Source: Tepidimonas alkaliphilus
GTDB taxonomy: Bacteria; Pseudomonadota; Gammaproteobacteria; Burkholderiales; Burkholderiaceae_C
Length of the DNA stretch: 51,490 bases
Direction: 5' to 3'
Assembly: GCF_007556595.1 (NCBI RefSeq)
Contig: NZ_VJNB01000014.1
Location: forward strand, 1-51,490
Position numbers and translations under genes: made by a program. Of the stretch, positions 13,010 through 46,133 are shown piece after piece; position 1 is the stretch's first letter; each line of letters starts with the position of its first letter. The notes beneath the pieces are model-generated. The model worked only from the letters and a program-made list of their open reading frames with translations, was not told the origin of the DNA and did not search any database.

Positions 13010-13079
13010 AAACACCCGTCCTGGAGCCGAAACGCGGTCGCTATCATCGCCCCGTGTTAGAAGAGGAGCCTCTTGCAGC

Positions 13080-13607
13080 ATGGCGACCTTGGCCCACCCC
13101 CGTCGATGGTCGCGCCGCAGCCTGTTGGGCTGGCTCGCGGCCAGCGCCTTGCTGACGGCACGCGCCTCCACGCTGCCCGCGCCCACGGGCCCTGTGGTGT
13201 TGACGATTCGCGGTCGCATCGAGCGACGCAACCAAGGCTCCCATGCGGCGTTGGATCTGGCCATGCTGGAGGCGCTGCCGCAGCACCATCTGCTGACCCG
13301 CACGCCGTGGGACAGCGAACCGGTCACCTTCAGCGGCCCGCGCCTGCGCGACGTGCTGGATGCCGTGGGCGCGCACGGACAACGCTTGCGCGCCGTGGCG
13401 CTGGACGATTACCGCGTCATCATCCCGCTGGAGGACGCGCAGCGCTACGACGTGATCGTGGCCACGCGCAAAAACGGGGCCCGAATGAGCGTGCGCCAAA
13501 AAGGGCCGCTGTTCATCGTCTATCCATTCGATCACGCGCCCCAGCTGCGCGATCGGCGCTATTACGAGCGCTCGATCTGGCAGCTCAAAGCGCTGGAAGT
13601 GGAATGA
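13080..13607 (+). CDS. Tat-exported pterin-binding-fold protein (COG3915/PruR-like)
   Basis: Small periplasmic protein of 175 residues with a sulfite-oxidase-type molybdopterin-binding fold (COG3915, 'putative pterin-binding protein'), inferred from the family-like core VVLTIRGRIER, FSGPRLRDVLDAVGA, VALDDYRVIIP and GPLFIVYPFD. The N terminus has a twin-arginine motif SRRSLLG followed by a hydrophobic stretch and an Ala-rich cleavage region near residue 30, so Tat export is likely. There is no cysteine in the protein, so it cannot ligate molybdenum as sulfite oxidase does and is not expected to be an enzyme. In Agrobacterium the related PruR binds a pterin in the periplasm and controls the membrane protein DcpA. 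Here the stop overlaps the ATG of the hybrid kinase by four bases (ATGA), which strongly suggests they act together. Possible -10 TATCAT around 13041-13046. Codon use is less GC-biased than rep. Confidence 0.75.
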   Translation: MATLAHPRRWSRRSLLGWLAASALLTARASTLPAPTGPVVLTIRGRIERRNQGSHAALDLAMLEALPQHHLLTRTPWDSEPVTFSGPRLRDVLDAVGAHGQRLRAVALDDYRVIIPLEDAQRYDVIVATRKNGARMSVRQKGPLFIVYPFDHAPQLRDRRYYERSIWQLKALEVE

Positions 13608-15529
13608 CGCCCCCCGCCTGCCCGCCCGCGCCGCCGCCGGCGCGCAGCAACCGGCGCTTTTGGCTATGGCTGGCCCTGACCACCGCGCTGCTGGCCGCCG
13701 GCATGGCGGTGCTGTTGGCGGTGTTCCTGCGCCAAGCGCAAACCGCGGAAGACTCAGTGCAGCTGCAGGCCGACTCGCTAACCGCGTTGGCCTTCTACCA
13801 CGAACGTGAATTTTTGCGCTTGCGGGAAGAAGTGGCCTTGGCGCTGCAAACGCCCACTCCCGATTGGGAGGGCTTGCATCTGCGCCTGGAAATCTGGGCC
13901 AGCCGGGTGGCGCTGCTGCGCGCCAACCCCTCGACGCAGCCGCTGCACCGCGACGCTGACGGAGCGCGCCTACTGCCGCAGCTGGAACAGCTCATGCAGG
14001 CGCTGGATACCGCCGTGGCGCAACAGCGCGTGGACGCGTTGCGCCAGATCCTGCCCGCCATGCAGGCCCTGGGGCCGGACGTGCAGGCCTTGACCGCCCT
14101 GGCCGATGCGCGAGCGGGCGAGCAAGTGCGCGCCAAGCTGCATGAGGTGCGCACCTTGCGGCGCTGGGTGGTGGCGCTGATGGCCGCGCAGGTGGTGGTG
14201 CTGCTGACCGCCGCGATCGCGCTGGCATGGCACCAACAGCGCCAGCTGCTGCACCGCCAACAGCTCGACGCCCTAAACGACGCCTTGCGTCAAGCGCGTG
14301 ACGCCGCGGAGGCGGCCAGCCGCGCCAAGAGCCGTTTTTTGGCCAACATGAGCCATGAGCTGCGCACCCCGTTCAACGGCCTGCTGGGCATGCTGACCAT
14401 GCTGGAAGCCAGCCCGCTCAGCCCCGAGCAGCACGACCAAATCCGCACCGCGCGCGCCTCCGCGGAACATCTGTTGCAGCTGCTCAACGACATTTTGGAT
14501 CTTTCGGCGCTGGATGCCGGTCAAATGCGACTGCGTCTGCAGCCGGTGGATGTGCCCGCGCTGGTGCTTGATGTGCAGCGCTGGGTGCAACCGCAAGCGC
14601 GGGCCAAGGGACTGACGCTGCAACTGGCGATCGATGTTGCCGAAACGCCCCGGGTGCTGGCCGATCCCACGCGCATTCGGCAAATTTTGCTTAATTTGCT
14701 GGGCAACGCCATCAAATTCACCGACCGGGGCAGCATCGAACTCAAGCTGCAAGCGGAGCCGATCGCACCCGAGCGGCTGCGCTGGCGCGCCACGGTGCGC
14801 GACAGCGGCATTGGCATCGACCCCGCCATGCAGTCGCGGCTGTTTCAACGCTTCCAGCAGGCTGACCCGGGCTCGACCCGCCGCTACAGCGGCAGCGGCC
14901 TGGGGCTGGACATCGCCCGCTCGCTGGCGCGTCTGATGGGCGGCGACGTGGTGCTGCGGCACAGCGCGCCAGGGCAGGGGTCGACCTTTGAGGCCACGTG
15001 GGTCACCGACCTCGCCGCGCCACCCGTCAATGGATGGGCCGCAGACGCGCCGCCCCAACAGGCCAGTGAGGCCACCGCGCCGCCGACGCCGTGCGAAGAT
15101 CCGCCTTGCGCCCACGTGCTGGTGGCCGAAGATCACCCTGTCAACCGCAAAGTGGTCGGGCTGATGCTGCAGCGGCTTGGGCACCGCGTGACTTTCGCCG
15201 CCGACGGCGCGCAAGCGCTGGACTTGGCTGCCGAGCAGGACTTTGACCTGATCCTGATGGACGTGCACATGCCGGTGCTGGACGGCCTGGAAGCGACGCG
15301 ACGCATCCGCGCCCTGCCTGGCCCACGCGGGCAAGTGCCGATTGTGGCGTTGACCGCCGATGTGCTCGATGCCGCCCAAACGCAAGCGCGCGCCGCAGGC
15401 ATGAACGATTTTTTGGGCAAACCCGTGCAGCCCGATCAGCTGCAAGCCACCGTGCGCCGATGGCAGCCGCGCCAAGCGGCTACCAGCCCAGCCCCAAATG
15501 CAGCGGCAGATACACCGCCATCCCCGTGA
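13604..15529 (+). CDS. Membrane hybrid sensor histidine kinase/response regulator
   Basis: 641 residues. Membrane helix at about 18-42, a periplasmic region at about 43-185 with no family I recognise, a second helix at about 187-209 and a coiled linker. HisKA has the phospho-acceptor His251 in NMSHELRTPFNGL. HATPase_c has the N box (Asn368 in LLGNAIKF), G1 DSGIGI (400-405) and G2 GSGLGL (430-435). A receiver domain from about 503 has the acidic pocket Glu509/Asp510, phospho-acceptor Asp553 (LMDVHMP), Thr584 and Lys606. All catalytic residues are present. No HPt domain or separate output regulator is seen nearby, so phosphotransfer must go elsewhere. Coupled by a 4-bp overlap to the PruR-like gene, which would be its periplasmic input partner. 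The last 50 bp overlap the 3' end of azlD on the other strand. Confidence 0.9.
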   Translation: MTPPACPPAPPPARSNRRFWLWLALTTALLAAGMAVLLAVFLRQAQTAEDSVQLQADSLTALAFYHEREFLRLREEVALALQTPTPDWEGLHLRLEIWASRVALLRANPSTQPLHRDADGARLLPQLEQLMQALDTAVAQQRVDALRQILPAMQALGPDVQALTALADARAGEQVRAKLHEVRTLRRWVVALMAAQVVVLLTAAIALAWHQQRQLLHRQQLDALNDALRQARDAAEAASRAKSRFLANMSHELRTPFNGLLGMLTMLEASPLSPEQHDQIRTARASAEHLLQLLNDILDLSALDAGQMRLRLQPVDVPALVLDVQRWVQPQARAKGLTLQLAIDVAETPRVLADPTRIRQILLNLLGNAIKFTDRGSIELKLQAEPIAPERLRWRATVRDSGIGIDPAMQSRLFQRFQQADPGSTRRYSGSGLGLDIARSLARLMGGDVVLRHSAPGQGSTFEATWVTDLAAPPVNGWAADAPPQQASEATAPPTPCEDPPCAHVLVAEDHPVNRKVVGLMLQRLGHRVTFAADGAQALDLAAEQDFDLILMDVHMPVLDGLEATRRIRALPGPRGQVPIVALTADVLDAAQTQARAAGMNDFLGKPVQPDQLQATVRRWQPRQAATSPAPNAAADTPPSP

Positions 15530-28771: not shown

Positions 28772-29102
28772 GGCAGTGGTCTCCTCGGTCAACAACGGGC
28801 CGGTCAGCCCCCACCGGGCGGCGGGCCTGCCCAACGGCCCAAAGTGACCGTGCGCCGGGATCGCCGGCGACGGCACCTGCTTGGCAGCCCGCCCGGGCTT
28901 AGCACGCAGTTTAGGCGCCGCGCGCGCGGCGCGCGAGCCCATAGCCCCAGGCTCGCCGCCTCTTTTCGGGTAAACCCCTAGGGTTTCACTGAAAAATCCG
29001 GGGTTTCGCGCTGTGGCCATGCCCAACGCTGAAGCGGCCTTGGCCCTGCCTGACCGCCCTGAGCGCCGCGGTGCTACAGTGCAAGCCGCCTGTTCGTTGA
29101 CG
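28772..29102. promoter_or_regulatory. Divergent control region with two inverted repeats
   Basis: 331 bp between the oxidoreductase and the GGDEF-EAL gene. An AT-richer core at about 28962-29008 holds AAACCC-CTA-GGGTTT (28972-28986) and, sharing its right arm, TTTCA-C-TGAAA (28984-28994); GGGTTTC occurs again at 29001-29007. These look like operators in a shared promoter region, but I cannot name the regulator. No coding frame is convincing. Confidence 0.4.
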
Positions 29103-32060
29103 ATGAGCGCTGCCCCGACCTCCTCCGATGCCCCCGCCGCCGATCGACTCCGGGCGGCGCTGCGCGCCCTCGTGGCGACGGCAGGCACGGCCGCAGCCTA
29201 TGCTGTGGCCGGCTGGTTGGCGCTGCAGCTGCGCGTGCCGCCGGACTATGCGATCGTGGTGTTTTTTCCGGCTGGCGTGGCCGCTGGCGCGGCCTTGGTG
29301 GTGGGCTGGACGGCGTTGCCCGGAGTCCTGATCGGGTCGCTGGCCGTGCAAGCGATGGCGCACCAAGCCGTGGGCGCCGACTGGCGACACTGGGGCGTGC
29401 TGGCGCCGGCGCTGGGCGCCACCGCCATGGCGGCCTGGTCGGCCTGGGCCGTGCGGCGCTGGGTGGGCTACCCCTCGGCGCTGGATGAGCCCCCGCAGGT
29501 GCTGCGGCTGTTGTTTATCGTGTTGCCGGCTAGCAGTCTGATCAACGCCAGCGTGGCCGTGCCTGCTTTGGTGTGGCACGGCGTCATCGCCCCGGGCGAC
29601 GCCTGGATCCAGTGGACCGCCTGGTGGCTCGGCGATGCGCTGGGCGCGGTGCTGTTGGTGCCGTTGGCGCTGGTGCTGCTCGGCCAGCCGCGCGACGCCT
29701 GGCGCGCCCGGCGCTGGAGCGTCGGCGTGCCGTTGGCGTTGGCGCTCGGGTTGGCGGCGACGGTGGTGCACGTGCTGGCCGCGGCGCAGACCGAGCGTTT
29801 GCGCATGCGGGTGGAGCAAATCGGGCACCAGGCCGCCCAGACGGTGCAGCGGCGGTTGGATGCGCAGCTGGATGCGCTGCAGGCGCTGGGCCAACTGCTG
29901 GCCCGCGACCCGCACCTGGATCCGGTCGAATTTGAGCACGCTGCCGGCGTGTGGCTGCGGCGCTACCCCGGCACCCAAAACTTTGCCTACAACTGGCGGG
30001 TTCGCCATGCAGAGCGGCATCGCTACGAGTGCTGCGAACCCGGCTGGCCGATCATGGCGCGTGATGCCCAGGGACAGCGTTGGCCCGCGCCTGCAGCGGA
30101 GGAATACCTGGTCATCACCCGCGTGGCTCCCGTCGATGGCAACACCACAGCGCTCGGGCTGGACGTCTGGAGCTACGAGCCGCTGCGCCGCGCGGTGCAA
30201 GCGGCGCTGGACAGCGGTCAGCCGCGCGCCACCGAGCCGATCCGCCTGGTGCAGGAACCCGGTCGTCAGCGTGGCGTGGTGATCTACCACGCGGTGCGCG
30301 AGCCCACCGGCGAGCATGATTGGATCGGCGTGGTCTCCAGCGCGCTGCGCTTGGACGACATGCTGCGCACCACGCTGGAGCCGCTGCCGCTGCAAGGGCT
30401 GGCGGCCTGCCTGATCGACTTGGACGCCGCCGAGCGACCGCAGCGCCTGGCCGGCCCCGAAGGCTGCGAAGCCGCCGCGTCTGAAGCGCCGCTGCAGGCG
30501 CGCACGGCGTGGCCGTTGCGCCTGGCGCAGCGCAGCTGGCTGCTGCAGCTGGACGGCACCGCCGCCTTTTGGCGCCAGAGCGCCGCGGACACCCGCCTGC
30601 ACTTGACCGCCAGCCTGGGTTTTTTGGCGGTGGCGCTGTTGGGCGCGTTTGTGCTGGTGACCACCGGGCAGCAGCGCCGCGTGGAACAGCTGGTGCGCGA
30701 GCGCACACTGGAGCTGGCGCACAGCCACGCCCAGCTGCAGCAACTGGCGCACTACGACACCTTGACCGGGCTGGTCAACCGCCAACGTTGGGCGGAGCTG
30801 GCCCGCAGCGTGCTGGACAGCGCGCGCCAGCAGGGCCGGGAGGTGGCGGTGGCGTATTTGGATTTGGACCGTTTCAAGCACGTCAACGACAGCCTTGGAC
30901 ACGCGCAGGGCGACCGGCTGTTGCAAGCGGTGGCCGCGCGGCTGCAAGCCTGCTTGCGCGCGCGCGACGTGCCGGCGCGCTTTGGCGGCGATGAATTTGT
31001 GGTGCTGTTGCCGTGGGTGAAGGGGCGCGAAGCCGCAGCGGTGGTGGCGCGCAAGATCGTGCGCGCGCTGGACACCTCGATTGAGCTGGACGGCGCGCGC
31101 GTGCGCATCGGGGCAAGCCTCGGCGTGGCGCTGTACCCGCACGACGCCACCGACCTCGAGACGCTGCTGCGCCATGCCGACACCGCGATGTACGCCGCCA
31201 AAGCCGCCGGGCGCAACCAGTGGCGCTTCTTTGAGCCGTCGATGCACGCGCAGGTGTCGCGCCGGCTGGCGCTGGAGTCGGCGCTGCGCGAGGCGCTGGC
31301 CGACCCGCCCGCGCACGGCCTGTACCTGGTCTATCAACCCCAAGTGGATGCCTGCGCCGGCCAGTTGGTCGGCGTGGAGGCGTTGCTGCGCTGGCAGCAC
31401 CCGCAATTGGGGGCGTTGACGCCGGCGGAGTTTGTCCGCATGGCCGAAGAGGCAGGCATCATCGAGCCGCTGAGCACCTGGGTGTTGCACGAGGCGCTGG
31501 CGCAGCTGGCGCGCTGGCGCGCGCAGTCGCCGGCCTGGTCGCAGGTTCGCGTGGCGGTGAACGTGTCGGCCCATGAGTTCGCTTCCGATCTGCCGCTGCG
31601 CGTGCAGCAGGCGCTTGACGCCGCCGGGCTGCCCGCCACGGCGCTGGAGCTGGAAATCACCGAAAGCTTGCTGGTGCACGCCAGCCACGAGCTGACGCAG
31701 CGCCTGCAAGCCCTGCAGACCCTGGGCGTGCGCCTCAGCCTGGACGACTTCGGCACCGGCTACTCGAGTCTGGGGTACCTCAAACGCCTGCCGATCGGCA
31801 CGCTCAAGATCGACCGCGGCTTCGTCGAGGGCATCCCGACCGACGCCGACAGCGTGGCGATCGTGCGCGCCACGCTGTCGATGGCGCACGACCTCGGCCT
31901 GACGGTGGTGGCCGAAGGCGTGGAGACGTCGGCGCAGCGCGATTTTCTCTGTCAGCACGGCTGTTGCCGGCACCAGGGGTGGCTGTACGCACCGGCCCTG
32001 TCCGCGTTGCAACTGCCGGCCTGGCTTGAGGGGTGGACATCCCAGGCCAGCCATTCCTAA
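29103..32060 (+). CDS. MASE1-CHASE-GGDEF-EAL membrane c-di-GMP enzyme
   Basis: 985 residues from the ATG at 29103. N-terminal multi-helix MASE1-like sensor (about 10-230; FFPAGVAAGAALVVG is typical), an extracytoplasmic CHASE domain (about 250-480), a membrane helix near 500-520, GGDEF at about 625 (RFGGDEF) with an RxxD inhibitory site five residues upstream (RARD), and an EAL domain from about 739. The EAL keeps VEALLRW, VAVNVSAHEF, LEITESL, DDFGTGYSS, LKIDRGFV and AEGVET, so all metal and catalytic residues are present. Both cyclase and phosphodiesterase activities look possible. The last turn is unusual: LCQHGCCRHQGWLY has three cysteines in place of the usual GCDxxQGYLF. Start alternatives exist upstream (29013). 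Codons are less GC-biased than in the core genes. Confidence 0.9.
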   Translation: MSAAPTSSDAPAADRLRAALRALVATAGTAAAYAVAGWLALQLRVPPDYAIVVFFPAGVAAGAALVVGWTALPGVLIGSLAVQAMAHQAVGADWRHWGVLAPALGATAMAAWSAWAVRRWVGYPSALDEPPQVLRLLFIVLPASSLINASVAVPALVWHGVIAPGDAWIQWTAWWLGDALGAVLLVPLALVLLGQPRDAWRARRWSVGVPLALALGLAATVVHVLAAAQTERLRMRVEQIGHQAAQTVQRRLDAQLDALQALGQLLARDPHLDPVEFEHAAGVWLRRYPGTQNFAYNWRVRHAERHRYECCEPGWPIMARDAQGQRWPAPAAEEYLVITRVAPVDGNTTALGLDVWSYEPLRRAVQAALDSGQPRATEPIRLVQEPGRQRGVVIYHAVREPTGEHDWIGVVSSALRLDDMLRTTLEPLPLQGLAACLIDLDAAERPQRLAGPEGCEAAASEAPLQARTAWPLRLAQRSWLLQLDGTAAFWRQSAADTRLHLTASLGFLAVALLGAFVLVTTGQQRRVEQLVRERTLELAHSHAQLQQLAHYDTLTGLVNRQRWAELARSVLDSARQQGREVAVAYLDLDRFKHVNDSLGHAQGDRLLQAVAARLQACLRARDVPARFGGDEFVVLLPWVKGREAAAVVARKIVRALDTSIELDGARVRIGASLGVALYPHDATDLETLLRHADTAMYAAKAAGRNQWRFFEPSMHAQVSRRLALESALREALADPPAHGLYLVYQPQVDACAGQLVGVEALLRWQHPQLGALTPAEFVRMAEEAGIIEPLSTWVLHEALAQLARWRAQSPAWSQVRVAVNVSAHEFASDLPLRVQQALDAAGLPATALELEITESLLVHASHELTQRLQALQTLGVRLSLDDFGTGYSSLGYLKRLPIGTLKIDRGFVEGIPTDADSVAIVRATLSMAHDLGLTVVAEGVETSAQRDFLCQHGCCRHQGWLYAPALSALQLPAWLEGWTSQASHS

Positions 32061-44881: not shown

Positions 44882-45955
44882 CTAGTCCGCGGTGCGCGCG
44901 GGCTGGCCCGTTGCGTCCCACGCTTCTTCCAGCCGGTCGCGGCCGGCCCGTTTGGCGCGATACAGCGCCGCGTCGGCGCGCGCCAGGCATGCCGTCCACG
45001 GCTCGCCCGCCGTGTGGCGCGCCACGCCGGCGGAAAAGGTCACCGGCGCCTCGCCGGCACGCACGCGCTCGGCCACCGCGGCGCGCAGCCGCTGCAGCAA
45101 GGCACGCACGGCCTGCGGTTCATCGGGCGGCAGCCAGAGCACGAATTCCTCCCCGCCCAAACGATAGAGCCGGTCGGTCTTGCGCAGCACCGCCTGCGCC
45201 ACAGAGGCGAACTGGCGCAGCACCGCGTCGCCGCCATCGTGGCCAAGGCGATCGTTGATGGCCTTGAAGTGATCCAAGTCCACCACCGCCAGCGCCCCCA
45301 CGTCGCCGCCTCGCGCGGCAGCCTGCGCCAGCTCCAGCTCCAGCAGTCGGCGGTTGCCGACGCCCGTGAGCGCATCCAGCAAGCTCAGCGTCTGCCAAAG
45401 CTCGATTTGCCGCTGCGCCTGCTGCGCCACGACATAACCCAGCAAGGCGGTGAGCAGCGCGGTGAAGGCAAAGAACGGCAGCCCCTCGCTGCCGCCCAGC
45501 TCGCTCCAGGAAAAAACCGCGGCCCCCGTCACCGCCAGCAGCGCCAGCAACACCGCCGCTCGCGGCGGCACGAGGAAGAACAGCATCAGCACGCCGGGGT
45601 AGGTCCAGAACAGCGCCGCGAAGCGCGCCGCCAAGCCGATGGCCCACAGCCCGCCGACGATGGCCAGCGCCACCACCCAGGCCGCGCGGCGGGTGTCGCC
45701 GGTGCGCCAGGCATACGCTGCAGCCCCCCCGAGCAGGAGCGACAGCGCCAGGTCGTTGGCCGTGGCCAGCCAGTTGCCCTGCCAGGCGCGGTAGACTGCA
45801 AACGGCAGCAGCCACACCAGGGTCACGCCCACGCCCAGCAGCAACACCCCGGCGCGGTAGTCCGCGCGGACGCGGGCGCGCAGCAGTGCCCACGCCCCCG
45901 AGGGCGCAGCCGTGTCGTCTTGCCGACCAGGCGCTGATGAAGAGGGGGTGCGCAT
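44882..45955 (-). CDS. Membrane diguanylate cyclase (GGDEF)
   Basis: About 357 residues. An N-terminal region with roughly six hydrophobic helices (about 35-185) resembles the unassigned 5-6 TM sensor modules of other cyclases; the GGDEF domain follows with DALTGVGNRR, DLDHFKAINDRLGH and the active-site GGEEF, plus the RxxD inhibitory site five residues upstream (RKTD). Active c-di-GMP synthesis is expected. The ATG at 45955 has AGGAGG only two bases before it; the alternative ATG at 45991 lacks any ribosome-binding site. It sits between recG and queA, 81 bp upstream of recG on the same strand. Confidence 0.85.
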   Translation of the reverse strand: MRTPSSSAPGRQDDTAAPSGAWALLRARVRADYRAGVLLLGVGVTLVWLLPFAVYRAWQGNWLATANDLALSLLLGGAAAYAWRTGDTRRAAWVVALAIVGGLWAIGLAARFAALFWTYPGVLMLFFLVPPRAAVLLALLAVTGAAVFSWSELGGSEGLPFFAFTALLTALLGYVVAQQAQRQIELWQTLSLLDALTGVGNRRLLELELAQAAARGGDVGALAVVDLDHFKAINDRLGHDGGDAVLRQFASVAQAVLRKTDRLYRLGGEEFVLWLPPDEPQAVRALLQRLRAAVAERVRAGEAPVTFSAGVARHTAGEPWTACLARADAALYRAKRAGRDRLEEAWDATGQPARTAD

Positions 45956-46133
45956 CGCCTCCTGTGATTCTGACAAAAATGCTTGGAACATCCAATGGTA
46001 ACGGCCACGTGCGGCCCGCCGATGTCAACACCCGGCACACCACGGGAAAACCCTAGGCCGACAGGGCCGCCGCCCCAATCAGCGACAATGAGAACTTTGA
46101 ACTTGGCACGGGCCTGTCCGGCCCTCAAGCACG

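Follow-up and report, generated by a model that had tools for sequence, protein, structure and literature searches.

The stretch of DNA analyzed here (the window) comprises positions 1 to 51,490 of contig NZ_VJNB01000014.1 from Tepidimonas alkaliphilus (assembly GCF_007556595.1) and contains a pruR-like gene that is overlapped at its 3′ end by the gene of a membrane-bound hybrid histidine kinase. With a probability of roughly 0.85, this is a PruR–DTB pair, in which pterin-bound PruR would signal through a four-helix periplasmic domain of the kinase. Pairs of PruR and a histidine kinase are named PruR–DTB systems in a 2026 review (PMC13259868; all statements attributed to it refer to the part of its text that was available), and the class to which the window pair belongs is already described in many Proteobacteria. 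New are the assignment in a Tepidimonas genome, a branch of partner kinases lacking a motif tryptophan, Asp109 of the PruR protein, and a lead on third genes of the HD-GYP type. In the available text of the review, the signaling function of PruR is worked out for the PruR–DcpA system of one species, and none is given for kinase-type pairs. The term PruR–DTB occurs in this review only among the literature searched, where no further paper on PruR kinases was found.

Both genes lie on the + strand, as do all features of the pair described below. The pruR-like gene (13080..13607) starts with ATG and encodes 175 amino acids (aa); the open reading frame (ORF) of the kinase (13604..15529) encodes 641 aa and overlaps it as ATGA. 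The original prediction had named these two ORFs and their overlap, and both are present at these coordinates. They show the two-gene order with pruR first that is typical of PruR–DTB systems, and the operon is putative.

PruR is described in PMC13259868 by its size, a secretion signal, the lack of a molybdenum-ligating cysteine, and the presence of Trp160 and Tyr104. All of these are found in the window protein. Its 175 aa correspond to the expected size of about 170 aa, and its N terminus carries a twin-arginine translocation (Tat)-type signal peptide with the motif SRRSLLG (approximately residues 1–29, 13080..13166), whose cleavage site was guessed by eye, whose export is predicted, and over which the structure model has a predicted local distance difference test score (pLDDT) of 58–60 (residues 1–30). 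It contains zero cysteines and hence none that could ligate molybdenum. Trp167 (13578..13580) and Tyr111 (13410..13412) take the places of the pterin-site residues Trp160 and Tyr104 in an ungapped alignment with a constant offset of 7. The Pfam family PF00174 matches with 28.6 bits (cut-off 24), and a phmmer comparison with four distinct PruR-type sequences of the PDB yields 139.3 bits for 7RKB, 126.1 for 7KOS, 73 for 7KOM, and 60.8 for 7KP2. Herein, the closest solved sequence, 7RKB, is a putative pterin-binding PruR of Klebsiella pneumoniae with neopterin, matched over residues 28–173, and 7KOS is Atu3496 of Agrobacterium tumefaciens.

The structure model of the protein (pLDDT 88.6) shows the sulfite oxidase–type fold of PruR, and its top seven Foldseek matches are all PruR crystals, with TM-scores of 0.69 to 0.81 normalized to the model and 0.86 to 0.97 normalized to the target (0.95–0.97 for the chains of 7KOS, 7KOU, and 7RKB). 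Sulfite oxidases and dehydrogenases follow at ranks 8 to 35, with TM-scores of 0.51 to 0.60 (model) and 0.22 to 0.29 (target). Judged by sequence and predicted fold, the 175-aa protein is a PruR. A Tat-signal protein with a sulfite oxidase–like fold, no cysteine, and a PruR-like identity had been anticipated by the original prediction, and the likeness to the pterin-binding fold, whose absence it had named as refuting, was found.

The cytoplasmic part of the kinase consists of a HisKA dimerization and phosphoacceptor domain (residues 241–306, 14324..14521, with SHELRTP from residue 250), a HATPase_c domain (residues 354–465, 14663..14998), and a C-terminal receiver of the Response_reg family (residues 505–617, 15116..15454) with the conserved aspartate in LILMDVHMP, all assigned by Pfam. 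As read from the sequence, the H box, N box, G boxes, and receiver motif are intact, which agrees with the complete catalytic residues claimed earlier for a 641-residue membrane hybrid kinase. Among NCBIfam models, TIGR02956 (TorS) scores best with 351 bits, below its cut-off of 676.5. A TorS- or BaeS-like kinase with or without a receiver is a trait of PruR–DTB systems, whose kinases are described as most like TorS and BaeS (PMC13259868). Pfam lists no Hpt domain in the window kinase at E-values up to 1 and gives no PAS match.

The periplasmic domain (approximately residues 43–186, 13730..14161) is predicted to form a four-helix bundle between two membrane helices (pLDDT 92.8). The original prediction had left this domain unassigned. 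It can be assigned as a DcpA-type sensor by profile match, as found in the partners of PruR–DTB systems: a profile of 44 kinase-type partners from across the phylum matches with 56.5 bits and a profile of 23 GGDEF-type partners with 31.7 bits, compared with 11.8 and 15.3 bits for the best of 1000 residue shuffles, respectively. Both profiles were built without DcpA of A. tumefaciens C58 from 67 of the 80 partners in the phylum set, and 4 of the 44 kinase-type rows come from the family or order of the window. In a second control, 1873 ORFs were scanned, of which 12 and 15 matched the two profiles besides the listed partners; the best 6 of the 12 and the best 6 of the 15 appear to be partner ORFs that were missed, truncated, or duplicated. 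By these profiles, the periplasmic domain is homologous to that of other pruR-linked proteins, including those of the GGDEF type. A search of PDB sequences with the sensor profile gave nothing convincing within the sensor, the best match (E 0.0011) being the coil before HisKA. The top Foldseek match of the sensor model is 4K0D, the periplasmic sensor domain of Adeh_2942, with a TM-score of 0.69 to the target and 22% identity; this match is weak (E-value 0.012) and absent from the sensor-profile matches in PDB sequences.

The pairing of the two genes is strongly conserved. Among 100 genomes of the family, 43 contain a PruR match and 25 a sensor match, the latter at 27 places, and at every one of these 27 places, a PruR match directly adjoins on the same strand, the two being separated by −6 to 64 nucleotides (nt). 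The survey of adjacency proposed by the original prediction thus finds the partner beside the homologous kinases. With PruR as the query, a sensor-bearing kinase was found just downstream of pruR in 62 of 65 related loci, a set that was not part of profile building. Of the other three, one (L100) shows the start of a kinase and then the end of the contig, in one (L064) only 234 bases follow pruR, and in the third (L079) the kinase lies further away. In a sample of the phylum, 108 of 397 genomes contain a PruR match. The 80 loci examined (from 142 listed places, taking the 83 strongest minus the window's own, G038, and one of G427, tied in score with G429) include 78 with a sensor-domain partner, namely 43 of kinase type, 23 of GGDEF type, and 12 mixed or unclear, a division that rests on motifs, with Pfam run on eight kinases. 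Two loci show no sensor partner in the span searched, and one of them (L255) has one further off in an ORF scan. Since the profiles were drawn from 67 of these 80 partners, the adjacency scores within the phylum set partly lean on themselves. The occurrence of kinase-type and GGDEF-type partners agrees with the PruR–DTB and PruR–DcpA configurations of PMC13259868.

At L079, from Tepidicella baoligensis, pruR and the kinase gene are about 1.2 kb apart, unlike in the other complete loci of the 65-locus set, possibly because of an insertion. On plasmids, PruR-like matches occur in 650 of 72,556 PLSDB records, 400 of the 650 being predicted as conjugative. On the Escherichia coli plasmid NZ_MT180431.1 (L128:3962-6135), the genes of a PruR-like protein and a hybrid kinase are located close to transfer genes of the VirB2/VirB3 type.

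Membership of the pair in the PruR family is well supported, and the earlier interpretation as a pterin-sensing system is supported with it; for pterin binding, the contact between PruR and kinase, phosphotransfer, the output of the phosphorelay, and the role of any enzyme of cyclic di-GMP (c-di-GMP) metabolism, we infer the following course. PruR would be exported by the Tat pathway to the periplasm, as its leader suggests, and, by analogy with its solved relatives, would bind a small pterin in a truncated sulfite oxidase–type pocket without a molybdenum-ligating cysteine. The bound or reduced pterin may then alter the seating of PruR on the kinase's four-helix periplasmic domain, as a pterin-dependent contact of PruR with the periplasmic domain is reported for PruR–DcpA of A. 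tumefaciens (PMC13259868). This change would run via the second membrane helix to HisKA and HATPase and would determine the phosphorylation state of the receiver within the kinase itself, for which the catalytic residues are present. As the kinase has neither an Hpt domain nor a linked response regulator, the phosphate might be handed to a separate Hpt protein, or the kinase might act through its receiver.

The window pair shares with PruR–DTB systems the (putative) two-gene operon, a PruR without a molybdenum-ligating cysteine, a DcpA-type periplasmic domain, and a TorS-like kinase with a receiver. It differs by the replacement of the tryptophan of the WX7E motif and by the length of the periplasmic domain (about 144 aa predicted, compared with about 190 aa given in PMC13259868), and it lacks a match to the PAS domain present in the R. 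pomeroyi example of that review. With PruR–DcpA of A. tumefaciens, it shares the receptor family and, as judged from the GGDEF-type partners (C58 DcpA itself being outside the comparison), a homologous periplasmic domain. The cytoplasmic parts differ, being HisKA–HATPase–REC in the window kinase and a diguanylate cyclase plus phosphodiesterase in DcpA.

Several observations weigh against the reading as a pterin-responsive PruR–DTB pair. The WX7E motif of the periplasmic domain, which is stressed in PMC13259868, is incomplete in the window kinase: at its place (residues 61–69, 13784..13810), Ala61 stands for the tryptophan, with Glu69 being kept. A literal WX7E at residue 88 was rejected as the motif, since the alignment places the motif at residue 61 and residue 88 is a nonhomologous place. 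In PruR, Asp109 (13404..13406) occupies the position of Asn102 of A. tumefaciens PruR (numbering from PMC13259868), a column in which the other 71 of 72 aligned proteins have asparagine and the window copy alone aspartate. A PruR match is missing from 57 of the 100 family genomes, and among the 42 strongest PruR places, only 27 have an adjoining sensor match at single-sequence sensitivity. Linked to the window pair, neither a response regulator nor an Hpt or pterin gene was seen. Elsewhere in the host genome, a short-chain dehydrogenase/reductase (SDR) that adjoins folB on contig C28 reaches none of the NCBIfam cut-offs, with 224.6 of 281 bits for PRK09134, its best model, 110.8 of 288 for pteridine reductase, its second best, and 80 of 249 for FolM; none of ten matches in a pteridine reductase search of the host genome exceeded the cut-off. 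This SDR carries the motif TGX3RXG, which we take to be a mark of pteridine reductases. Its place beside folB makes a supply of reduced pterin in the host genome plausible, although it scores below the curated cut-offs.

The plasmid NZ_CP083567.1 of Sulfitobacter sp. W027 (L129:685-5727) carries folE2 and an SDR with TGX3RXG upstream of a pruR–kinase pair, with one gene between, an arrangement that links pterin synthesis genes to sensing genes.

Aspartate at the Asn102 position is reported for PruR groups C and D (PMC13259868). The WX7E motif is tied there to the vast majority of members rather than to all, and Ala61 is hence treated as a departure within the class. Among 144 aligned partners (an alignment that omits L064, L070, L079, L100, L122, L192, L255, and L261), tryptophan is found in 108 and glutamate in 121; tryptophan is lacking in 36 rows including that of the window, five of which (L128, L225, L230, L265, and L266) seem to be badly aligned in the motif region. 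Within the Burkholderiales, 30 of 61 pairs have the tryptophan. Mapped onto a PruR tree of 142 rows, the tryptophan state changes 6 times, compared with 31.5 times for shuffled labels, and thus follows lineages. An Hpt-like motif, which is a loose one, occurs in 26 of 30 Burkholderiales kinases with tryptophan and in 2 of 30 without. Hpt is listed by Pfam for L085 and L190 but for neither the window kinase nor L112 or L119; as L112 has the tryptophan without a Pfam Hpt, the association between the traits is not absolute.

In the 61 Burkholderiales pairs, two PruR positions stand out by tryptophan state, namely position 90, with arginine in 30 of 31 pairs without tryptophan and serine or alanine in 29 of 30 pairs with it, and position 108 (leucine or isoleucine). 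A coupling of the tryptophan state to single PruR residues was rejected and the pattern read as shared descent, because the two tryptophan states form nearly separate clades and the tryptophan-bearing plasmid pairs L125, L126, L127, and L130 also have leucine at position 108. Tentatively, and with more doubt than confidence, the tryptophan-less kinases of the Burkholderiales (Tepidimonas, Limnohabitans, Tepidicella, and relatives) might have a changed PruR contact, with an altered ligand preference (Asp109 in the window copy) or an opposite signaling logic, and might pass phosphate to an unlinked Hpt protein. With its assigned sensor and two natural motif departures, the Tepidimonas pair is a practical test object for the residues that carry the signal from PruR to the kinase.

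The loss of the tryptophan also bears on an explanation in which PruR of this clade is a constitutive structural partner, the helical bundle of the kinase senses something else, and the missing tryptophan is the sign of a pterin-controlled contact that has changed or been lost. The clustering of tryptophan-less partners on the PruR tree, the window among them, speaks for it, as does the lack of an Hpt-like motif (by the same loose definition) in 28 of 30 tryptophan-less Burkholderiales kinases compared with 4 of 30 with tryptophan. However, PruR keeps the pterin-site tryptophan and tyrosine, the sensor keeps Glu69, Arg94, Ser100, and Arg101, and the gene pair stays together, and we regard this explanation as unlikely. 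That the ligand of PruR is something other than a small pterin, such as a folate product or a different redox-active heterocycle for which the neopterin of the crystals is a stand-in, appears quite improbable given that the fold, the pocket residues, and the family are all those of PruR; Asp109 of the window copy would fit it, and PMC13259868 calls the in vivo ligand unclear and describes neopterin as bound in opposite orientations. We consider it very improbable that the protein belongs to the sulfite oxidase family as a small molybdopterin enzyme, an assignment suggested by the PF00174 match and by the annotation of plasmid relatives as molybdopterin-dependent oxidoreductases. This reading was rejected on account of the absence of cysteine, the smaller size (the sulfite oxidase family chains among the Foldseek matches have at least 261 residues), and the fold search, which ranks all sulfite oxidases below the PruR crystals. 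The host genome also has a separate PF00174 protein on contig C32, scoring 161 bits.

A further explanation concerns the end of the phosphorelay, where the kinase might feed an HD-GYP response regulator and thereby c-di-GMP, as three-gene orders elsewhere suggest. On two Agrobacterium plasmids (L125:1824-5600 and L126:3917-7775), pruR and a hybrid kinase gene are followed by the gene of an HD-domain phosphohydrolase, whose REC and HD domains were confirmed by Pfam for L125 only, and a REC–HD-GYP third gene is found by motif in 3 of the 80 phylum loci (L190, L194, and L195). Where an HD-GYP regulator gene follows the pair, such phosphorelays may end in c-di-GMP; these orders suggest c-di-GMP breakdown as the end point of some of them, acting on the pool that is under the direct control of DcpA. 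HD-GYP is mentioned only generally in the available text of PMC13259868. The host genome encodes a protein that is 41% identical to the third gene product of L125 (C12:64086-65051). Yet this gene adjoins another hybrid kinase, and no HD-GYP gene is linked to the pair in the window. A motif scan of the 65 related loci picked up a single GGDEF string, a doubtful one, and no gene of the HD-GYP type. HD-GYP is also not the sole neighbor, since third genes elsewhere encode, judged by motif, receiver proteins of other kinds (L189, L214, L223, and L237) and, in Paracoccus, an annotated response regulator transcription factor. For the window pair, an output of this kind is possible but on balance doubtful.

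On contig C12 (L270:1060-5482, − strand), the hybrid kinase that adjoins the REC–HD-GYP protein has an MHYT-type membrane part, as judged by eye. Four Hpt matches are present in the host genome, one of them in a stand-alone frame of 139 aa (C23:183278-183508) without a link to the pair. The two c-di-GMP enzymes that the original prediction had placed elsewhere in the window, unlinked to the pair, were both located: a MASE1–CHASE–GGDEF–EAL frame on the + strand (28974-32057) and a GGDEF frame on the − strand (about 44885-46024). No link between either gene and the pruR–kinase pair was seen.

A putative Shine–Dalgarno-like sequence, GAGGAG (13063..13068), as read from the sequence, lies 11 nt 5′ of the pruR start codon. 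The upstream neighbor of pruR is presumably a helicase-like gene, and the genes downstream of the kinase, on the opposite strand, presumably encode AzlC/AzlD-like membrane proteins, as judged from the sequence. The host genome comprises 2.46 Mb in 33 contigs, with the window as contig C6. With PruR as the query, the nearest relatives of the pair among named contigs are from Tepidimonas. Compared with the Tepidimonas relative L060, the nonsynonymous divergence (dN) is lower than the synonymous (dS) in both genes, at 0.17 and 0.79 for PruR and 0.24 and 0.83 for the kinase; for PruR compared with L062 (Tepidimonas ignava), dN is 0.25 and dS 0.59. In the PruR tree, whose bootstrap had not settled, the window falls into a seven-row clade with a support of 100/99, together with five Tepidimonas rows and one metagenome-assembled genome labeled Hydrogenophaga.

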